A stretch of 33,453 nucleotides of DNA from an uncultured Bacteroidia bacterium (GTDB lineage Bacteria; Bacteroidota; Bacteroidia; Bacteroidales; UBA932): positions 1 through 33,453 of the forward strand of contig CACZKE010000029.1 in assembly GCA_902781705.1 (NCBI GenBank), written 5' to 3'. The stretch's first letter is position 1, and each line of letters starts with the position of its first letter. A program made the position numbers and the translations under genes. Shown here one piece after another: positions 10,533 through 33,361 of the stretch. The notes beneath the pieces are model-generated. The model did no database searches. It saw only the letters and a program-made list of their open reading frames with translations, and was not told where the DNA came from.

Positions 10533-13325
10533 ATGGACAAGAAGGAGTACATACAGGTACGGGGAGCAAGGGCGAACAATCTCCAAGGGGTGGATGTGGA
10601 CATCCCCCGGGGCGAGTTTGTCGTCGTGACAGGACTTTCCGGCAGCGGAAAGTCCTCGCTTGCCTTCGATACCATCTATGCGGAGGGGCAGCGCCGCTAC
10701 ATGGACACCCTGTCCACGTACGCGAAGCACTTCATGGGCATCCTCGAGAAGCCCGAGGTGGAGGACATCGCCGGCCTGAGCCCCATCATCGCCATCGAGC
10801 AGAAGACCACGGGCAACAATCCCCGCTCCACGGTGGGGACCATCACGGAAATCTACGACTTCCTGCGCCTGCTGTACGCGAAGGGCTCCCGGGCCTATTC
10901 ACCGGAATCCGGCAAGGAGATGGTCCGTTATACGGATTCGCAGATCACGGACCTCATCATGACCTCTTACCGGGGCCGGAAATGCTATCTGCTCGCCCCG
11001 CTCGTCCGCGGCCGCAAGGGCCACTACCGGGAACTGTTCGAGCAACTCCGCAAGCGGGGCTTCACCGAGGTCCGCATCGACGGGGATATCTTCCCGCTGC
11101 AGGAGGTGTCGGCCCTGGACCGCTACAAGCCGCATTTCATCGAACTCGTGGTGGACCGGCTCAAGCCCGGGGAAGGGGACGACAAGCGGGTGCGGGACTC
11201 CGTGGTCCACGCGCTGGACGCCGGCAAGGGGTCCGTCGCGGTGATGGACCTGGAGAGCGGCGTGCTGCAGCATTTCTCCAAGCACCTGGTGGATCCCGAG
11301 ACCGGGACCTCCCTCCAGGAGCCCCAGCCGCATACCTTCTCCTTCAATTCGCCGCAGGGCTATTGCCCGCACTGCAAGGGCCTCGGGACCATCGTGGACG
11401 TCAATGTGGACTCCATCATCCCGGACCGGACCAAGTCCATCGCCGACGGGGCCATCGTCCCGCTGGGGAAGGTCCGCGAAAGCAAGAAGTTCGACATCGT
11501 GCGTTCCATCGCCCGGAAATACGGATTCAGTCTCTACGAGCCCATCGGCACACTGCCCGACGAGGCGGTGACGCTCCTGATTTACGGCTCGGACGAACTG
11601 TTCCGCGTCGGCGACGGGAACCTCTCCGAGATGGAGGCCTGGGACGGAGTGATCGACCATATCGAGGATACGCTCGTGTGCCCCGACTGCCGGGGAACGC
11701 GCCTCAGTAAGGAAGCCCTGTGCTTCCGGATCGACGGCAAGACCATTGCCGATGTCGCCGCGATGGAAATCTCGGCCCTCAGGCAGTGGCTGGACGAGAT
11801 CCCCGCCGGCTTCAACCAGCGGGAGAAGAACGTCTCCCGGGACATCCTGAAAGAACTGAGGGAACGGGTCCAGTTCATGCTGGACGTGGGCCTGGACTAC
11901 CTGTCGCTGGACCGCGCCACGGCGTCCCTGTCCGGCGGCGAGAGCCAGCGCATCCGCCTGGCGACGCAGATCGGCTCCAAGCTTGTGAACGTGCTGTATA
12001 TCCTGGACGAGCCGTCCATCGGCCTGCACCAGCGGGACAACCGGAAACTGATCGCCTCCCTGAAGGCGCTCCGGGACGAAGGCAACTCCGTGATGGTCGT
12101 CGAGCACGACGCGGAGACGATGTACAGCGCCGACTGGCTCGTGGACGTGGGACCCGGAGCAGGGGAGAACGGCGGTCGGATCTGTCTGAGCGCCCCTTTG
12201 GCGACCCTACTGAAGGGAGAGCCGATGGATCCGGAAACGGCCGCCCATGCCGTCGTAGGGCCTTCCGTGACCCTGGATTACCTGCAGGGTCGCGAGTCGA
12301 TTCCCGTGCCGGCCTCGCGTCGGCGGGGAAGCGGCGAGACGCTGTCGCTCTATGGCGCTTCCGGCAACAACCTGAAGCGGATCGACGCGCATTTCCCGCT
12401 GGGCTGCCTGGTGGGTGTCGCCGGCCTTTCCGGCAGCGGAAAGTCCTCGCTCGTGAACGAGACGCTCATGCCCATCCTCAAGCGCAAGTTCTACCGCGCC
12501 AAGGAGAAGCCCCTCCCGTACGACCGGATCGAAGGCGTGGAGTATATCGACAAACTCATCGAGATCGACCAGTCGCCGATCGGCCGCACCCCGCGGTCCA
12601 ATCCGGCGACCTTCACCGGCGTGTTCAACGACATCCGGATTCTGTTCGAAGAAACCCAGGACGCGAAGGTCCGGGGCTTCAAGGCCGGCCGTTTCTCGTT
12701 CAACGTCCCCGGCGGACGCTGCGAAGAGTGCAAGGGCGCCGGCATCAAGGTCATCGAGATGAACTTCCTTCCGTCCGTCCATGTACCTTGCGAGGAGTGC
12801 CGCGGACGGCGCTACAAGGAAGACACCCTGGCGGTGCGCTATAAGGGAAAGAACATCAACGATGTGCTGGAAATGCCCATCGCCGAGGCTTACGAGTTCT
12901 TCAAGCCCATCCCCAAGATCGCGACGAAACTCAAGACGATGGTCGATGTGGGGCTCGGGTACATCCACCTTGGACAGTCGGCCGTCACCCTGTCGGGCGG
13001 CGAATCCCAGCGCATGAAACTGGCCGCCGAACTGTCCCGTCCCTCTACGGGCCGGACGCTCTACATCCTGGACGAACCCACGACCGGACTGCACTTCGAG
13101 GACATCAAGGTGCTTCTCGGCGTGCTGGGCCGCCTGGTGGACGCCGGCAACACCGTCATCATCATCGAGCACAACCTGGACGTCCTCAAGTCCGTGGACT
13201 GGATCCTGGACATGGGCCCCGAAGGCGGCCGCCGCGGCGGACGCATCGTCGCCGAGGGAACCCCCGAGGAACTCGCCGCCAACCCTTCCTCCGTCACCGG
13301 ACCTTTCCTGAAGGAAGTGCTCTGA
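10533..13325 (+). CDS. uvrA: UvrA, excinuclease ABC subunit A
   Basis: The 930-residue protein has the full UvrA plan: two ABC ATPase modules, each with an inserted domain. Walker A motifs are GLSGSGKSS at 34-42 and 631-639. Signature motifs are LSGGESQRIRLA from residue 466 and LSGGESQRMKLA near residue 830. Cysteine pairs at 278/281 and 383/386 in the first half, and 730/733 and 753/756 in the second, would bind zinc. UvrA dimers scan DNA for bulky lesions and load UvrB for nucleotide excision repair. A probable -7 box ends 7 nt before the ATG, so the mRNA may have almost no leader. No clear terminator follows; repeats begin about 40 nt downstream. Confidence 0.97.
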   Translation: MDKKEYIQVRGARANNLQGVDVDIPRGEFVVVTGLSGSGKSSLAFDTIYAEGQRRYMDTLSTYAKHFMGILEKPEVEDIAGLSPIIAIEQKTTGNNPRSTVGTITEIYDFLRLLYAKGSRAYSPESGKEMVRYTDSQITDLIMTSYRGRKCYLLAPLVRGRKGHYRELFEQLRKRGFTEVRIDGDIFPLQEVSALDRYKPHFIELVVDRLKPGEGDDKRVRDSVVHALDAGKGSVAVMDLESGVLQHFSKHLVDPETGTSLQEPQPHTFSFNSPQGYCPHCKGLGTIVDVNVDSIIPDRTKSIADGAIVPLGKVRESKKFDIVRSIARKYGFSLYEPIGTLPDEAVTLLIYGSDELFRVGDGNLSEMEAWDGVIDHIEDTLVCPDCRGTRLSKEALCFRIDGKTIADVAAMEISALRQWLDEIPAGFNQREKNVSRDILKELRERVQFMLDVGLDYLSLDRATASLSGGESQRIRLATQIGSKLVNVLYILDEPSIGLHQRDNRKLIASLKALRDEGNSVMVVEHDAETMYSADWLVDVGPGAGENGGRICLSAPLATLLKGEPMDPETAAHAVVGPSVTLDYLQGRESIPVPASRRRGSGETLSLYGASGNNLKRIDAHFPLGCLVGVAGLSGSGKSSLVNETLMPILKRKFYRAKEKPLPYDRIEGVEYIDKLIEIDQSPIGRTPRSNPATFTGVFNDIRILFEETQDAKVRGFKAGRFSFNVPGGRCEECKGAGIKVIEMNFLPSVHVPCEECRGRRYKEDTLAVRYKGKNINDVLEMPIAEAYEFFKPIPKIATKLKTMVDVGLGYIHLGQSAVTLSGGESQRMKLAAELSRPSTGRTLYILDEPTTGLHFEDIKVLLGVLGRLVDAGNTVIIIEHNLDVLKSVDWILDMGPEGGRRGGRIVAEGTPEELAANPSSVTGPFLKEVL

Positions 13326-13362
13326 TCCCTGCTACCGGGCGGGGCTTTCCTGCGATTTCCTG

Positions 13363-13517
13363 CCCCCGGCCGCATCCTCCGGCCGCATTTGCGGCAAACC
13401 GGCCCTGCGCACCGCTCCGTGTGCCGACGCGTCCATCCTTCCCCGCCCCCGGCCGCATCCTCCGGCCGCATTTGCGGCAAACCGGCCCTGCACGCCGCTC
13501 CGTGTGCTGACGCGTCC
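13363..13517 (+). repeat. 83-bp REP-like array, downstream side of the RAYT-like gene (about two copies)
   Basis: The palindromic core GGCCGCATTTGCGGCAAACC starts at 13381 and again at 13464, exactly 83 bp apart; CCCCC blocks at 13363 and 13446 keep the same spacing. The array ends at GACGCGTCC (13509-13517). The inner core GCCGCA-TT-TGCGGC can fold as a tight hairpin. The unit is the same as in the array at 14887-15105, in the same orientation, but differs from it at several positions. Confidence 0.9.
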
Positions 13518-13601
13518 GTAAAAGCGAGCGTTTTGCTGGGAATCATGGCCACGTCGGCACGTAGAATGATGCGGAGGACCGATTCCCCGCATTTGCGGCA
13601 A
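13518..13601 (+). repeat. Array tail with terminal palindromic core (downstream side)
   Basis: This stretch is not coding. It resembles the tail of the other array (15106-15188): both contain TTTTGC, then a GGCCACGTCGGCACGT-like block, and then another copy of the core. Here the final core CCGCATTTGCGGCAA (13587-13601) has the same orientation as the array. Confidence 0.6.
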
Positions 13602-13638
13602 GGAGGGGGAGGGCAAGCGACGCGTAGCCGGTATAGTC

Positions 13639-14568
13639 CTAATTCTTCCCGTCCCAGACAAGACAACGGCGAATCTGTATGTCCGGAAGGCGGTAATCAT
13701 GTCGGAGGATACCGTATATGCTCTTCTTTGGGGTGTCGACAGCCCGATAGATGGAGGTGCATCCATGCCGAGGAAGCAATTCACGATCAATCAGTTTGCA
13801 TACGTCGAGGTCCTGCATTTTGGCGCGGTTGAAATTCCGACCGTGTTCGTTGTTCAGCAGTTCTGCGATACTTTTCTCGTCCTGAACATGTTCCACGTCA
13901 GCCAGGGTAATCGGTTTCCCGGTCTGGTCCTTGAGCTGGTCTTGGATCCACGTTTCATCCGTGAGTCGGTTCATCTGGTACAGAAAGTTGCGAGGGGACG
14001 AGTAGAATTGCTCCGTCCGTCGGATCTCCATGAAACTGCTTCTGAGGAAGATACCGTTTTTGTCCATGACATAGGTGTCCGGAAAGTCGGCATAGCGGGG
14101 AAGGAATCCGGCGATTTCCTCCCTTCGGGTGAAGAACGCCGGCTCCAGGGTGGTGCCCAGGTCTTTGGAAAACATCTCGCCGACAGAGCAGAACGGATAT
14201 CCGAAGGCCGATGCGGCCGCGCAGTGGTGCAACCCATTCCGCAGGATATAGTTGGACAGGACAAGCTGATGATTGAACCCATCGACCTTCAGAATATAGG
14301 TTCCTTTTTCTCCAAACCGTCCGTTCCGTCCGTACTTTCGGTTGAAATACTTGGTATAGGCCATCCGGGTTCTGCCGGCAAAGACCGTGGGGCAGTCCGT
14401 GAATGCATTGATATGGACATGATTGGACATCTCGGCGTCAGACATGATTTCGGTGCCGGTCCGAAATCCCTCGATGGCCATGACATTGACGAACATCCCA
14501 TGGTCCTCTTCGTCGCGGAACATGACTTCATCGTGGGAAGTGAAACAGAGACTGTAGGATTCTTTCAT
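13639..14568 (-). CDS. REP-associated tyrosine transposase (RAYT)-like protein, Y1/HUH family
   Basis: From the ATG at 14568 the product has 309 residues; a GTG at 14616 in the same frame would add 16, directly after an in-frame stop. Numbering from the GTG, the HUH metal motif is SNHVHI (His66, His68). It is followed by the family pattern YTKYFNRKYGRNGRFGEKGT and SNYILRNGL, where Tyr123 is the candidate DNA-linking tyrosine. About 170 further residues end in a possible helix-turn-helix (KSIYGILRHDYRLPDIQIRR). It is longer than E. coli TnpA-REP (about 165 residues). Its GC content is visibly lower than that of its neighbours. It lies alone between two arrays of one 83-bp repeat, so it may nick or spread that repeat. 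No terminal inverted repeats mark it as a classical IS. Confidence 0.8.
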   Translation of the reverse strand: MKESYSLCFTSHDEVMFRDEEDHGMFVNVMAIEGFRTGTEIMSDAEMSNHVHINAFTDCPTVFAGRTRMAYTKYFNRKYGRNGRFGEKGTYILKVDGFNHQLVLSNYILRNGLHHCAAASAFGYPFCSVGEMFSKDLGTTLEPAFFTRREEIAGFLPRYADFPDTYVMDKNGIFLRSSFMEIRRTEQFYSSPRNFLYQMNRLTDETWIQDQLKDQTGKPITLADVEHVQDEKSIAELLNNEHGRNFNRAKMQDLDVCKLIDRELLPRHGCTSIYRAVDTPKKSIYGILRHDYRLPDIQIRRCLVWDGKN

Positions 14569-14616
14569 GCTTTTTTGGACAAAGAAAGGGACTCCGTTTG
14601 AGATAAAGAAATCCAC

Positions 14617-14886
14617 GATGATTTATTTCATTGCGTACTAACAGGCTGATATTCAGGTTGTTTTGCGTCCGTTGGACTTTTTCATGATGATTGGAAAAAA
14701 GAAAATAGCGTGCATTTTATTCTTTATGCGCGTTTTTTTTCGTTTGGATAATTGTTTATGGAGTTGCTGGAAATGATTGTATGTGAGAAGGTTGTCGATA
14801 TTTGACGGAAAAGGGAAAAATTGGGGCCGGACAGAATTCCGTTGGGTGGATTTTTCACCGCGGATGCAAGTTTTTTTTTCTTGCAC
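14617..14886. other. AT-rich leader region between the RAYT-like gene and the upstream array
   Basis: About 270 bases without a supportable gene, with A and T runs and much lower GC than the rest of the window. It must hold the minus-strand promoter of the RAYT-like gene, but no clear TTG/TAnnTTTG pair could be picked out. Short open frames here are extensions of the open frames across the repeats. Confidence 0.5.
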
Positions 14887-15105
14887 GGCCGCATTTGCGG
14901 CAAACCAGCCCTGCACGCTGTTTCGTGTGCCGACGCGTCCGTCCTTTCCCGTCCCCGGCCGCGTCCTCCGGCCGCATTTGCGGCAAACCAGCCCTGTACG
15001 CTGTTTCGTGTGCCGACGCGTCCGTCCTTTCCCGTCCCCGGCCGCGTCCCCCGGCCGCATTTGCGGCAAACCAGCCCTGCACGCTGCTCCGTGTGCCGAC
15101 GCGTC
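14887..15105 (+). repeat. 83-bp REP-like array, upstream side of the RAYT-like gene (three copies)
   Basis: The core GGCCGCATTTGCGGCAAACC starts at 14887, 14970 and 15053, exactly 83 bp apart. The first two full units are almost identical; the third stops at GACGCGTC (15098-15105). The unit matches the array at 13363-13517 but carries its own shared differences (for example AGCCCTG instead of GGCCCTG, and CTGTTTCG instead of CCGCTCCG). This suggests the copies within each array are kept alike locally. Confidence 0.9.
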
Positions 15106-15188
15106 GGGGAATCGACTCTTTTGCCGATAAACAGTGCCATGTCTGCACGTGGAGTGAGGTGGGGGGCCGTTTTGCCGCAAATGCGGCC
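15106..15188 (+). repeat. Array tail ending in an inverted palindromic core (upstream side)
   Basis: It resembles the tail at 13518-13601 in order and spacing (CTTTTGC, a GTGCCATGTCTGCACGT block, then the core). Here the terminal core is inverted: TTGCCGCAAATGCGGCC at 15172-15188. With the last direct core at 15053 it makes an inverted pair about 120 bp apart, like a REPIN. Confidence 0.65.
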
Positions 15189-15471
15189 ATGGGGCGATGG
15201 TTGATAGCGTGGGGCGGCTGTGAGGTGGCCGTGAGGAGGCAGGAGGTTGAGGGAGGAAAGAGACCGGGGTTGAGGAACGAGCCGATACCGGAAGGGCCGG
15301 GAGGGGATGCCAGAAGAGAATTCCGGGAGAGAATTCCAGCAGAGGACGCCGGGAGAGGTTCGGAAGCAGGGAGTTGGAGGTGGGGAAAAGGAGCTGTGTC
15401 GGGTTTTTTAAGGCGGTGTCGGGATTTTTTACTATTTTAGCGGATTGGAATGAAAATATAATTCAAACGAT
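15189..15471. other. Purine-rich intergenic region before the MFS genes
   Basis: No gene is supportable. The plus strand from about 15205 to 15395 is strongly G/A-rich, with GAGAATTCC twice (near 15317 and 15333). A direct repeat GTGTCGGG plus a T-run lies at 15396-15410 and 15416-15430. The final 40 bases are AT-rich and must contain the promoter of the MFS gene at 15472, but no clear -33/-7 pair stands out. Confidence 0.5.
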
Positions 15472-17100
15472 ATGTCTGAAACGGTAAACAAGACGCTGCG
15501 GGATTCGGCAGCGATGCGATGGACGGCGCTCCTGCTGCTGGCCCTCGGAATGTTCTGCGCATACATTTTCATGGACATCCTCTCCCCGATCAAGGACCTC
15601 ATGGAGTCCACGCGGGGCTGGGATTCCAAGGCGTTCGGGACGATGCAGGGCGCGGAGACCTTCCTCAATGTCTTCGTGTTCTTCCTGATCTTCGCGGGCA
15701 TCATCCTGGACAAGATGGGTGTCCGCTTCACGGCGGTCCTGTCGGGCGCCGTGATGCTTACCGGCGGTATCATCAAGTACTTCGCCGTCAGCGACGCCTT
15801 CATGGGCTCCGGCCTGGAGAACTGGTTCACGAACCATCTCAACTGGCATACCGGCGTCGGTTTCATCGACGACGTCCTGCCGTTCTACCAGAACATGCCC
15901 GCCTCCGCCAAACTCGCCGCGATCGGCTTCATGATCTTCGGCTGCGGCTGCGAGATGGCCGGCATTACGGTGAGCCGCGGTATCGTCAAGTGGTTCAAGG
16001 GCCGCGAGACGGCTCTCGCCATGGGCTCCGAGATGGCGCTGGCCCGCCTGGGCGTCGCCACCTGCATGATCTTCTCGCCCTACTTCGCCAAACTCGGCGG
16101 CCAGGTGAACGTGAGCCGTTCCGTGGCCTTCGGCGTGGTGCTCCTGTGCATCGCCCTGATCATGTTCATCACCTACTTCTTCATGGACCGCAAACTGGAC
16201 AGCCAGACCGGCGAGGCCGAGGAGAAGGACGACCCGTTCAAGGTCAAGGACATCGGCAAGATCCTCTCCAGTCTCGGTTTCTGGCTGGTCGCCCTGCTGT
16301 GCGTGCTCTATTATTCCGCCATCTTCCCGTTCCAGAAGTATGCGGTGAACATGCTGCAGTGCAACCTCACGCTCTCCGTGCCCGCTGCCGGGACGTTCTG
16401 GGCCGGCGAGGCGGTCACCATCGTCCAGTACATCATCATGCTGGTGGTGGCCGTTTGTGCTTTCTCCAGCAACTTCATCAAGAACAACAAGGGGCTCAAG
16501 TACGGCCTCATGGCCGTCGCCATCGTGGCCCTCGTGGTCTATTGCGTGATGGGCTTCAAGCGCGGCACCGCCGAGACCATCTTCGCCGTGTTCCCGCTCC
16601 TGGCCGTCGCGATCACCCCGATCCTCGGCAACTATGTGGACCATAAGGGCAAGGCGGCGTCGATGCTCCTGATCGGCTCCATCCTGCTGGTCTTCTGCCA
16701 CCTGACCTTCGCTTTCATCCTTCCGATGTTCAAGGGCAATGCGGTGGGCGGCACCATCGTGGCCTATGCCACGATCCTGGTCCTCGGCGCCAGTTTCTCG
16801 CTGGTTCCCGCGGCCCTCTGGCCTTCCGTCCCGAAACTCGTGGACGAGAAGATCATCGGCTCCGCCTATGCGCTCATCTTCTGGATCCAGAACATCGGCC
16901 TGTGGCTCTTCCCGATCCTGATCGGCAACGTCCTGACGAGCACCAACGCCCCCGGCACCGCGCCGGACCAGTTGAACTACACCTGGGCGCTCGTGATGCT
17001 GGCCTGCCTCGGCGTCGCGGCCATGCTCATCGGCCTGTACCTGAAGGTCGTGGACAAGAAGAAGCATCTCGGCCTCGAGGAACCCAACATCAAGGCGTAA
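15472..17100 (+). CDS. MFS transporter, first of a tandem pair
   Basis: The 542-residue protein has about twelve hydrophobic segments and a major facilitator motif A-like loop GIILDKMGVR (76-85). A segment GCEMAGITVSRGIVKWFKGRETALAMGSEMALARLG in the first half and PAALWPSVPK plus WIQNIGLW in the second half are shared with the next gene. It carries a longer loop around residues 105-145 than its partner. It is an inner-membrane transporter; the substrate cannot be inferred. The next gene begins one base after its stop, so the pair is co-transcribed. The sequence before its start is AT-rich. Confidence 0.88.
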   Translation: MSETVNKTLRDSAAMRWTALLLLALGMFCAYIFMDILSPIKDLMESTRGWDSKAFGTMQGAETFLNVFVFFLIFAGIILDKMGVRFTAVLSGAVMLTGGIIKYFAVSDAFMGSGLENWFTNHLNWHTGVGFIDDVLPFYQNMPASAKLAAIGFMIFGCGCEMAGITVSRGIVKWFKGRETALAMGSEMALARLGVATCMIFSPYFAKLGGQVNVSRSVAFGVVLLCIALIMFITYFFMDRKLDSQTGEAEEKDDPFKVKDIGKILSSLGFWLVALLCVLYYSAIFPFQKYAVNMLQCNLTLSVPAAGTFWAGEAVTIVQYIIMLVVAVCAFSSNFIKNNKGLKYGLMAVAIVALVVYCVMGFKRGTAETIFAVFPLLAVAITPILGNYVDHKGKAASMLLIGSILLVFCHLTFAFILPMFKGNAVGGTIVAYATILVLGASFSLVPAALWPSVPKLVDEKIIGSAYALIFWIQNIGLWLFPILIGNVLTSTNAPGTAPDQLNYTWALVMLACLGVAAMLIGLYLKVVDKKKHLGLEEPNIKA

Positions 17101-17101
17101 A

Positions 17102-18409
17102 ATGGCGAAGTCCCTTCCCAAATGGGCTCCGTGGCTGGCCCTGCTGTGCCTGGTAGTACCGATGTTCGCATCGTACTACTTCGACGACATGTTCTCCAGC
17201 ATCTCGTACCTGTTCCAGGACGCCGGCCTGACGGAGTTGGGATGGAACGAGAATGACTACGGCCGGTACACCAGCGGCTACAGTGTCCTGTGCATCTTCG
17301 GCGGCCTGGCCCTGTTCGGCATCCTGCTGGACAAATGGGGCGTCCGGGTGGCCGGCACCCTGTACGTGGGGATGATGGTTGCGGGCGCCGGCCTGGTGAC
17401 CTGGGCCGTCCTGGGCGGCGGGAAGCAGTCTTCCACCCTGGCCTATGCCGGCTGCATGGTCTTCGGCCTCGGGAGCGAGATGGCCGGGACGGTGGTGAAC
17501 CGTTCCATCGGAAGGTGGTTCAAGGACGGGGCCATGGCCTTCGCCATGGGCCTGCACCTCGCCATCGCCCGCCTGGGTACGGCTTTCGCCCTCGTGATTT
17601 CTCCGAAACTGGTTGCAGAGCAGTCCGGTCACGTGTATTCCCTCGCCGAGACCGCCCGCCCGGCCCTCGTGGGCATGGGCCTGATGGCCGTCGGCCTCAT
17701 CCTCTGGGCCGTGTTCGTGGCCCTGGATGCCAAGCGGTTCCCCAAGTCGGGCGGCACGGAGAACAAATCGGACGACTTCCACTTTGCCGATGCCCTCAAG
17801 GTCCTCGGCAACAAGAACTTCTGGCTGCTGGGCCTGCTGTGCGTGCTGTTCTACAGCGCCATTATCGCTTTCAAGAAATTCGCCGGGGCCATCCTGATCC
17901 CGCGCTTCGGCATTCCGGCCGAGGCCGCCGGCTGGATGGTGTCCATGCTTCCGTTCTCCACCGTCGTATTCGCCCCGCTTTTCGGCGCCATGGTGGACAA
18001 GCTGGGCAAGGGAACCCGCTGGATGATCATCGGTTCCGTCCTCGCCCTCGCCGCGCACCTGCAGCTGGCCTTCGCCCCGGCGGGCGTCCCGTTCTGGGGC
18101 TACCTGGCCATGGTGTTCCTGGGCTTCGGGTATTCCCTGGTCCCGGCCGCCCTCTGGCCCAGCGTGCCGAAGATCGTCCCGGACAAGATCCTGGGCACGA
18201 CCTTCGCCCTGCTGTACTGGGTCCAGAACCTGGGCCTGCTGGTGTTCAAGCGCCTGGCGGGCAGCATCCTGGGCAGCGAAGCCGGTACGCCGGTCACCGT
18301 GGAGGTCATGTTCTCCGGCCTTTGTGTCGCCGCCCTGGTCGCCGCGGTGCTTTTCGCCCGGAATTCCCGGAAGAATCCGGGGCTGGGACTGGACCGTCCG
18401 AACCGGTAG
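17102..18409 (+). CDS. MFS transporter, second of a tandem pair
   Basis: This 435-residue membrane protein is a paralogue of the preceding gene: GILLDKWGVR (73-82), GSEMAGTVVNRSIGRWFK near residue 124, and PAALWPSVPK with WVQNLGLL near the C-terminus occur in the same order. It is about 100 residues shorter. Tandem paralogues starting one base apart suggest either two related substrates or a heteromeric pair; the sequence does not decide. A dispersed repeat begins 2 bp after its stop, and dxs starts 55 bp downstream, perhaps within the same transcript. Confidence 0.88.
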   Translation: MAKSLPKWAPWLALLCLVVPMFASYYFDDMFSSISYLFQDAGLTELGWNENDYGRYTSGYSVLCIFGGLALFGILLDKWGVRVAGTLYVGMMVAGAGLVTWAVLGGGKQSSTLAYAGCMVFGLGSEMAGTVVNRSIGRWFKDGAMAFAMGLHLAIARLGTAFALVISPKLVAEQSGHVYSLAETARPALVGMGLMAVGLILWAVFVALDAKRFPKSGGTENKSDDFHFADALKVLGNKNFWLLGLLCVLFYSAIIAFKKFAGAILIPRFGIPAEAAGWMVSMLPFSTVVFAPLFGAMVDKLGKGTRWMIIGSVLALAAHLQLAFAPAGVPFWGYLAMVFLGFGYSLVPAALWPSVPKIVPDKILGTTFALLYWVQNLGLLVFKRLAGSILGSEAGTPVTVEVMFSGLCVAALVAAVLFARNSRKNPGLGLDRPNR

Positions 18410-18410
18410 A

Positions 18411-18437
18411 GATTCTTTCGCTTCGCTCAGAATGACA
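18411..18437 (-). repeat. Dispersed GTCATT repeat, minus orientation
   Basis: GATTCTTTCGCTTCGCTCAG followed by AATGACA is the reverse complement of the repeat form found at 33303-33330 and, in variant form, at 4117-4143. It fills most of the gap between the MFS gene and dxs. Confidence 0.8.
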
Positions 18438-33302: not shown

Positions 33303-33361
33303 TGTCATTCTGAGCGAAAGCGAAGAATCTGTCAAAAAAGCCCGGCCATGGCATAATGACA
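33303..33361. repeat. Dispersed GTCATT repeat with inverted ends after rpoC
   Basis: TGTCATTCTGAGCGAAAGCG and the following GAAGAATCT (33303-33330) are a third copy of the dispersed repeat; it has one extra A compared with 18411-18437. TGTCATT at 33303-33309 is mirrored by AATGACA at 33355-33361, so the 59-bp unit has inverted ends like a small non-autonomous element. Confidence 0.65.

Follow-up and report, generated by a model that had tools for sequence, protein, structure and literature searches.

Known RAYT systems and the locus

For other REP-associated tyrosine transposases (RAYTs), one family of repetitive extragenic palindromes (REPs) per RAYT has been described (PMC6006769). The REPs of Escherichia coli TnpA-REP, a member of RAYT group 2 (PDB 4ER8), carry GTAG, and among three enzymes whose REP recognition has been dissected the importance of this motif varies (PMC8266576). 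In Bacteroidetes, the TnpA-Y1 proteins of subclass 2.6 (group 5) average ~179 aa, have the Y motif YIH[QN]NP and go with atypical hairpins that lack GT[AG]G, found both at the gene and at other genomic places; in subclasses 2.1 and 2.3 the C-terminal part is long, with helix-turn-helix (HTH) or DnaA-like domains in 2.1.2, and REPs are reported to be lacking (PMC6006769). In the REP doublets of Pseudomonas fluorescens (REPINs), the two REPs commonly lie 71 or 110 bp apart and are mostly inverted, and clusters occur beside the RAYT gene (PMC3116915). CGTC-tagged REPs, known also from Bacteroidetes, are reported not to flank RAYT genes (PMC3733652). Here we describe a RAYT-like gene between two arrays of REPs in a stretch of 33,453 nucleotides (the window), which is contig C29 of a 3.07-Mb genome of an uncultured gut bacterium of the Bacteroidales (43 contigs, completeness 98.97%). 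The locus is probably REPtron-like, with a RAYT-type single-strand transposase gene flanked by REPs on which the protein acts or acted, a reading to which we assign a probability of roughly 0.8.

The gene (13639..14568, minus strand) encodes 309 aa from its best start, the ATG at 14568; the longest open frame begins instead at a GTG at 14616. The histidines of the HUH motif (H50-V-H52, codons at 14413..14421, minus strand) and the putative catalytic tyrosine Y107 (14248..14250, minus strand) are invariant in two alignments (A1 and A3) and across 67 sequences. They are followed by a C-terminal extension, mostly helical by secondary structure and with conserved residues of its own, at about residues 120-309 (13642..14211, minus strand), which may read the repeat, as the initial annotation suggested. 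The Y1_Tnp family is reached at E<=0.01 by 5/31 members examined and not by the window protein. The protein has an HUH-Tyr core whose closest fold is TnpA-REP (4ER8), 5 Z units above the transposases of insertion sequences (IS), of which those of IS608 and ISDra2 are the next matches. The RAYT-like Y1/HUH character proposed in the initial annotation is thus borne out by the fold. The same annotation took the gene to be a lone transposase and expected one RAYT gene per genome; the gene is not lone, and a single RAYT per genome is not supported, as the genome has seven matches at E<=0.001, the window gene included. Those listed lie at five places, of which C29 and C5 belong to the subgroup of the window gene.

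The family probably works like a RAYT-REP system, but its foot, the sizes of its stem and loop, its pitch and orientation, and the C-terminal part of its protein set it apart. Unlike E. coli TnpA-REP, with which the window protein shares 9% sequence identity, it combines REPs without a GT[AG]G foot, a 12-bp stem and a loop of ~27 nt with a protein extension of ~190 residues. It resembles subclass 2.6 in its occurrence in Bacteroidetes and in having atypical hairpins, free of GT[AG]G, both at the gene and at other genomic places, but the aligned proteins have ~300-330 aa and Y motifs such as YILRN..HH, which set them apart from the subclass as described; with 309 aa and YILRNGLHH, the window protein does not fit that description either. 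An HUH-Tyr core with a long C-terminal part is shared with subclass 2.1.2. Unlike subclass 2.1 as described, the family here has REPs, and no HTH or DnaA family was among the matches of 44 C-terminal parts searched at E<=1. Two features that a published classification separates (PMC6006769), REPs at the gene and a large C-terminal part of the protein, are united in this family. As in P. fluorescens, doublets occur at preferred distances, here 82-83 bp, and cluster beside the RAYT gene, but they are mostly direct (20 direct, 7 inverted and 2 unclear when oriented by the loop, L086 omitted).

REPs of the window and of its relatives

Direct repeat units with a pitch of 83 were detected on both sides of the gene, two within 13356-13516 and three within 14862-15105, as initially annotated, and all five share the palindromic core GCCGCATTTGCGGC without a mismatch. 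Each unit consists of a 52-nt REP and a spacer, rather than being the unusually long tandem unit that had been proposed. The REPs lie on the plus strand at 13382..13433 and 13465..13516 to the left and at 14888..14939, 14971..15022 and 15054..15105 to the right. An inverted copy that had been overlooked closes each array (13548..13599 and 15136..15187, minus strand), giving three REPs left and four right at pitches of 83 and 83, and of 83, 83 and 82. The direct units end in GCGTC, as do CGTC-tagged REPs; this is probably chance, because the inverted copies, a further copy on contig C3 and the REPs of relatives end in GGC. The window REPs align over their full length with those of L085, by a small margin the nearest homologue in the protein tree. 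One arm differs from that of L085 by a single base (GTGCCGACGCGTC vs GCCGCGTCGGCA), and the other is altered to GCCGC-ATTT-GCGGC or GCCGC-AAAT-GCGG. The own REPs keep the register of the 12-bp stem, with 78.8% of cells paired (three L085 rows included) against 23-47% in slid controls.

A profile search gave 222 relatives of the gene in named genomes, the best 80 of which were kept. A close set of 31 among these (L083-L112 and L115) is 57-64% identical to the window protein, except for L110 and L111 (51-52%). The relatives are from Bacteroidales assemblies, many of them ruminant-derived according to database records, and within the genus 46/61 genomes, counting the own one, contain a match at E<=0.001, compared with 1/40 other genomes. 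In line with the initial annotation, REP-like hairpins flank the homologues. Hairpins of any sequence do so in 30/30 close and 42/49 other loci; the remaining 7/49 have none. They are about eight times as dense at <=600 bp from the gene as at 1.2-2.4 kb (66 in 35,851 bp vs 16 in 66,499 bp for the close set, and 88 in 56,748 bp vs 20 in 101,769 bp for more distant homologues; in nine close loci a second hairpin, preceding the start codon, adds to the near counts). Near close homologues the REPs have 51-53 nt, a 12-bp stem, a loop of ~27 nt and a GCC/GGC foot, and often form arrays or doublets at 82-83 bp. A plain rule (GCC...GGC, >=10/12 paired, 50-54 nt) finds 128 hairpins in the 31 close loci, 81 of them <=700 bp from the gene, vs 28 near 47 more distant homologues, for which 372,007 bp were scanned. 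Of 68 distances below 400 bp between neighbouring hairpins, 44 fall at 82-84 bp. The rule places a hairpin near the gene in 29/31 loci and none in L106 and L111, which have other feet and where a model of the relatives' REPs gives weaker ones. Several more distant homologues bear other hairpins, some with an identical cassette on both sides.

In 35 hairpins from 20 loci, selected for complementarity and aligned by their stems (alignment A4), the three outer pairs and the eleventh are invariant and seven pairs vary on both sides. Of all cells, 97.1% are paired vs 24-46% in slid controls, and the covariation score exceeds 500/500 shuffles. TT precedes GCC in 23 of the 35 and A follows GGC in 25; a GT[AG]G foot is excluded in all 35 within the three flanking bases per side (a tag 1-2 bases away was not sought). 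Folding of three REPs from relatives lies well below that of shuffled sequences. A second hairpin with its own variable stem lies just 5´ of the start codon in L086, L091, L093, L099, L102, L103, L104, L112 and L115 (for example AATCGGTTGAAA / TTTCAACCGATT, and AATCGTAAAAAAG / CTTTTTTACGATT in other loci) and may perhaps be a left end or an expression control; a search before the window gene found none.

The same REPs occur elsewhere in the genomes of relatives. The strict pattern GCCGCNTTGACA...TGTCAANGCGGC is present in 7/16 genomes searched, among them G105 with 13 places, 12 of which are on contigs without the gene; the reversed pattern has no match in the 16. When a model built from the REPs of relatives with the window's genome excluded (R1) was applied to 101 genomes under stricter filters, it found REPs in eight. 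Close homologues (>=57%) are present in seven of the 101, and R1 REPs in 6/7 genomes with such a homologue vs 2/94 without (Fisher 1.5e-7, kinship uncorrected), so that the dispersal and co-occurrence predicted initially are seen in relatives. Of 47 REPs away from the gene, 25 lie outside called frames, compared with 10% for random places. The L086 arrays, where open frames cross the repeats, hold 14 of the remaining 22. REPs away from the gene thus prefer non-coding places, and their presence follows that of the gene.

In the window's own genome the repeat is rare, contrary to the many copies that were expected, and decay is kept as a serious rival. With the right array as query, only the left array and one weaker place (52 bp, 81%) are recovered. 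R1 reports one window REP, the inverted copy closing the right array (15133-15190, E 0.036), and a solitary copy between asd and lysC (E 1.2e-4; gene names read from sequence). A model that includes own rows (R2) finds nine REPs, the seven of the window and an inverted doublet with a pitch of 83 on C3. The 18-mer GGCCGCATTTGCGGCAAA is exact eight times (six in the window, one on C3 and one at C26:427) and recurs with one mismatch at C26:37985; at <=3 mismatches it has 17 matches vs 4 for the reversed control.

Two other genes are paired with repeats of their own. The closest paralogue in the own genome (L043, G000:C5:94584-95507; 37% identical to the window protein) is RAYT-like and has a dispersed repeat, GTTCAAACGNGGTTTGTACA, with 16 matches at <=3 mismatches on C3, C5, C12, C16, C31 and C36, about half of them at the gene itself, and none for the reversed sequence in the own genome. 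A third type of hairpin, in G026, has three places, of which two adjoin the gene; it is absent from 9/9 other genomes searched. Both pairs are consistent with one REP family per RAYT. Away from its gene, the L043 repeat also forms two inverted pairs, with spacings of 133 and 135 bp.

Readings of the locus

If the REPtron-like reading is correct, the protein would bind the REP as single-stranded DNA, nick beside it through Y107 and have copied or moved REP doublets; in the own genome one REP arm has changed, leaving an imperfect stem and few copies. Several results weigh against this reading. In most own rows the stem is mismatched at its sixth and ninth positions, and it is without covariation. 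Single-strand folding of the direct units barely beats shuffles (z -0.6 and -1.0), the inverted copies fold at z -1.9 and -0.3, and the hairpin criteria used on relatives find none beside the window gene, although units alignable with the relatives' REPs are present. R1 at E 1 reports none of the five direct units, and the gene-bearing genome without an R1 match in the survey is the window's own. The nine REPs lie at only two sites, and eight of them are rows of R2, the model that found them. Four of the eight positive genomes supplied R1 rows (Fisher 0.004 without them), and some R1 negatives may be false because of the stricter filters and because at most 55 candidates were scored per genome. 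In the stem alignment, the pairing percentage is partly built in because the hairpins were chosen for complementarity, and the seven pairs with double changes (shuffled mean 5.3) are equalled by 49/500 shuffles. Whole-tree REP-arm and protein distances hardly correlate (Mantel r 0.11; 439/5000 permutations as high). A clean empty site was sought among relatives and none was found; L093 has two REPs where L091 retains part of one, and L109 two where L092 has about one, which shows a change in REP number and not insertion.

A rival reading is that of a relic, in which the gene reads intact, the REPs are stemless and no longer spreading, and the arrays are tandem duplications of dead REPs. We regard this as a real contender, somewhat short of an even chance. 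In addition to the unpaired stem positions and the little fold signal, the nine own REPs at two sites compare with 6-55 R1 matches in eight relatives (both strands, at most 55 scored). Against a relic stand the intact 309-aa frame with its invariant catalytic residues, and an 18-nt core that, though the remainder has changed, is identical in the five direct units, in one of the inverted copies and at two distant places; recent array duplication accounts only for the five direct units, so the distant identical cores are left unexplained.

It is improbable that the locus is an autonomous IS200-type insertion sequence with multiplied ends, which would be the repeats. The structural ranking of IS608 and ISDra2 and the identical cassettes flanking some loci speak for this, but many REP places lack the gene, the fold is nearer to TnpA-REP by the margin given above, and uvrA lies within 4 kb in the window and in 4/31 close loci, as for a resident gene. 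Moreover, the closest paralogue is 37% identical (in one draft genome), and 50,697 phage and 72,556 plasmid records hold no match to the gene. Still less probable are transcription terminators or mRNA-stability elements merely adjoining the gene, which would suit the non-coding preference and the good folding of three relatives' REPs but not the eightfold density near the gene, the 82-84 bp pitch, the tracking of the gene across genomes, or the lack of any Rfam family at threshold in window 12900-15700.

Within the REPtron-like reading, one speculative possibility, which we consider rather unlikely, is a class of RAYTs with a divided REP choice. All members would recognise a constant foot (GCC/GGC, often with TT before and A after), and the seven-pair stem would be exchanged between lineages and read by matching changes in the protein, the unit being a mostly direct doublet with a pitch of 82-83 bp, or about eight turns of the helix, which the C-terminal extension would help to hold.

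The commonest REP arm is the same as that of the nearest relative in the protein tree in 13/28 cases (null mean 1.25, maximum 8 in 5000), which together with the near absence of a whole-tree correlation means that REP types follow recent descent and turn over fast; the comparison of arms with the protein tree does not establish that the protein reads the stem. Hairpin sequence varies by species while size and spacing are nearly constant, which provides a natural test set for DNA choice by such enzymes. As the 31 close homologues have REPs of the same size and pitch with differing, covarying stems, specificity is testable by swapping pairs, and if REP choice is indeed divided between foot and stem, recognition rules could be derived from the dozens of natural enzyme-hairpin pairs in the genus.

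Neighbouring genes and minor observations

The RAYT-like gene sits between uvrA (10533-13325), which adjoins it, and a gene of the major facilitator superfamily (MFS) type (neighbour names read from translations). The close loci with uvrA within 4 kb are L090, L105, L106 and L108. L108 is a broken relative, with a reading frame that stops early and weak REPs nearby. In a second Y1 group (NHVH or NHIH, alignment A2), tandem or duplicated repeats flank L078 (G016), L081 (G042) and L082 (G023). Two adjacent MFS-type transporter genes (15472-17100 and 17102-18409) resemble tandem paralogues, with a stretch of 78 nt that is 72% alike. A short repeat, TGTCATTCTGAGCGNAGCGAAGAATCT, has relatives at window 18410-18437 and 33303-33330. 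At <=1 mismatch, its reversed control has no match in 41 genomes, and the repeat itself has 10 further copies in the own genome and occurs in 11 of the 41, all of the same genus.
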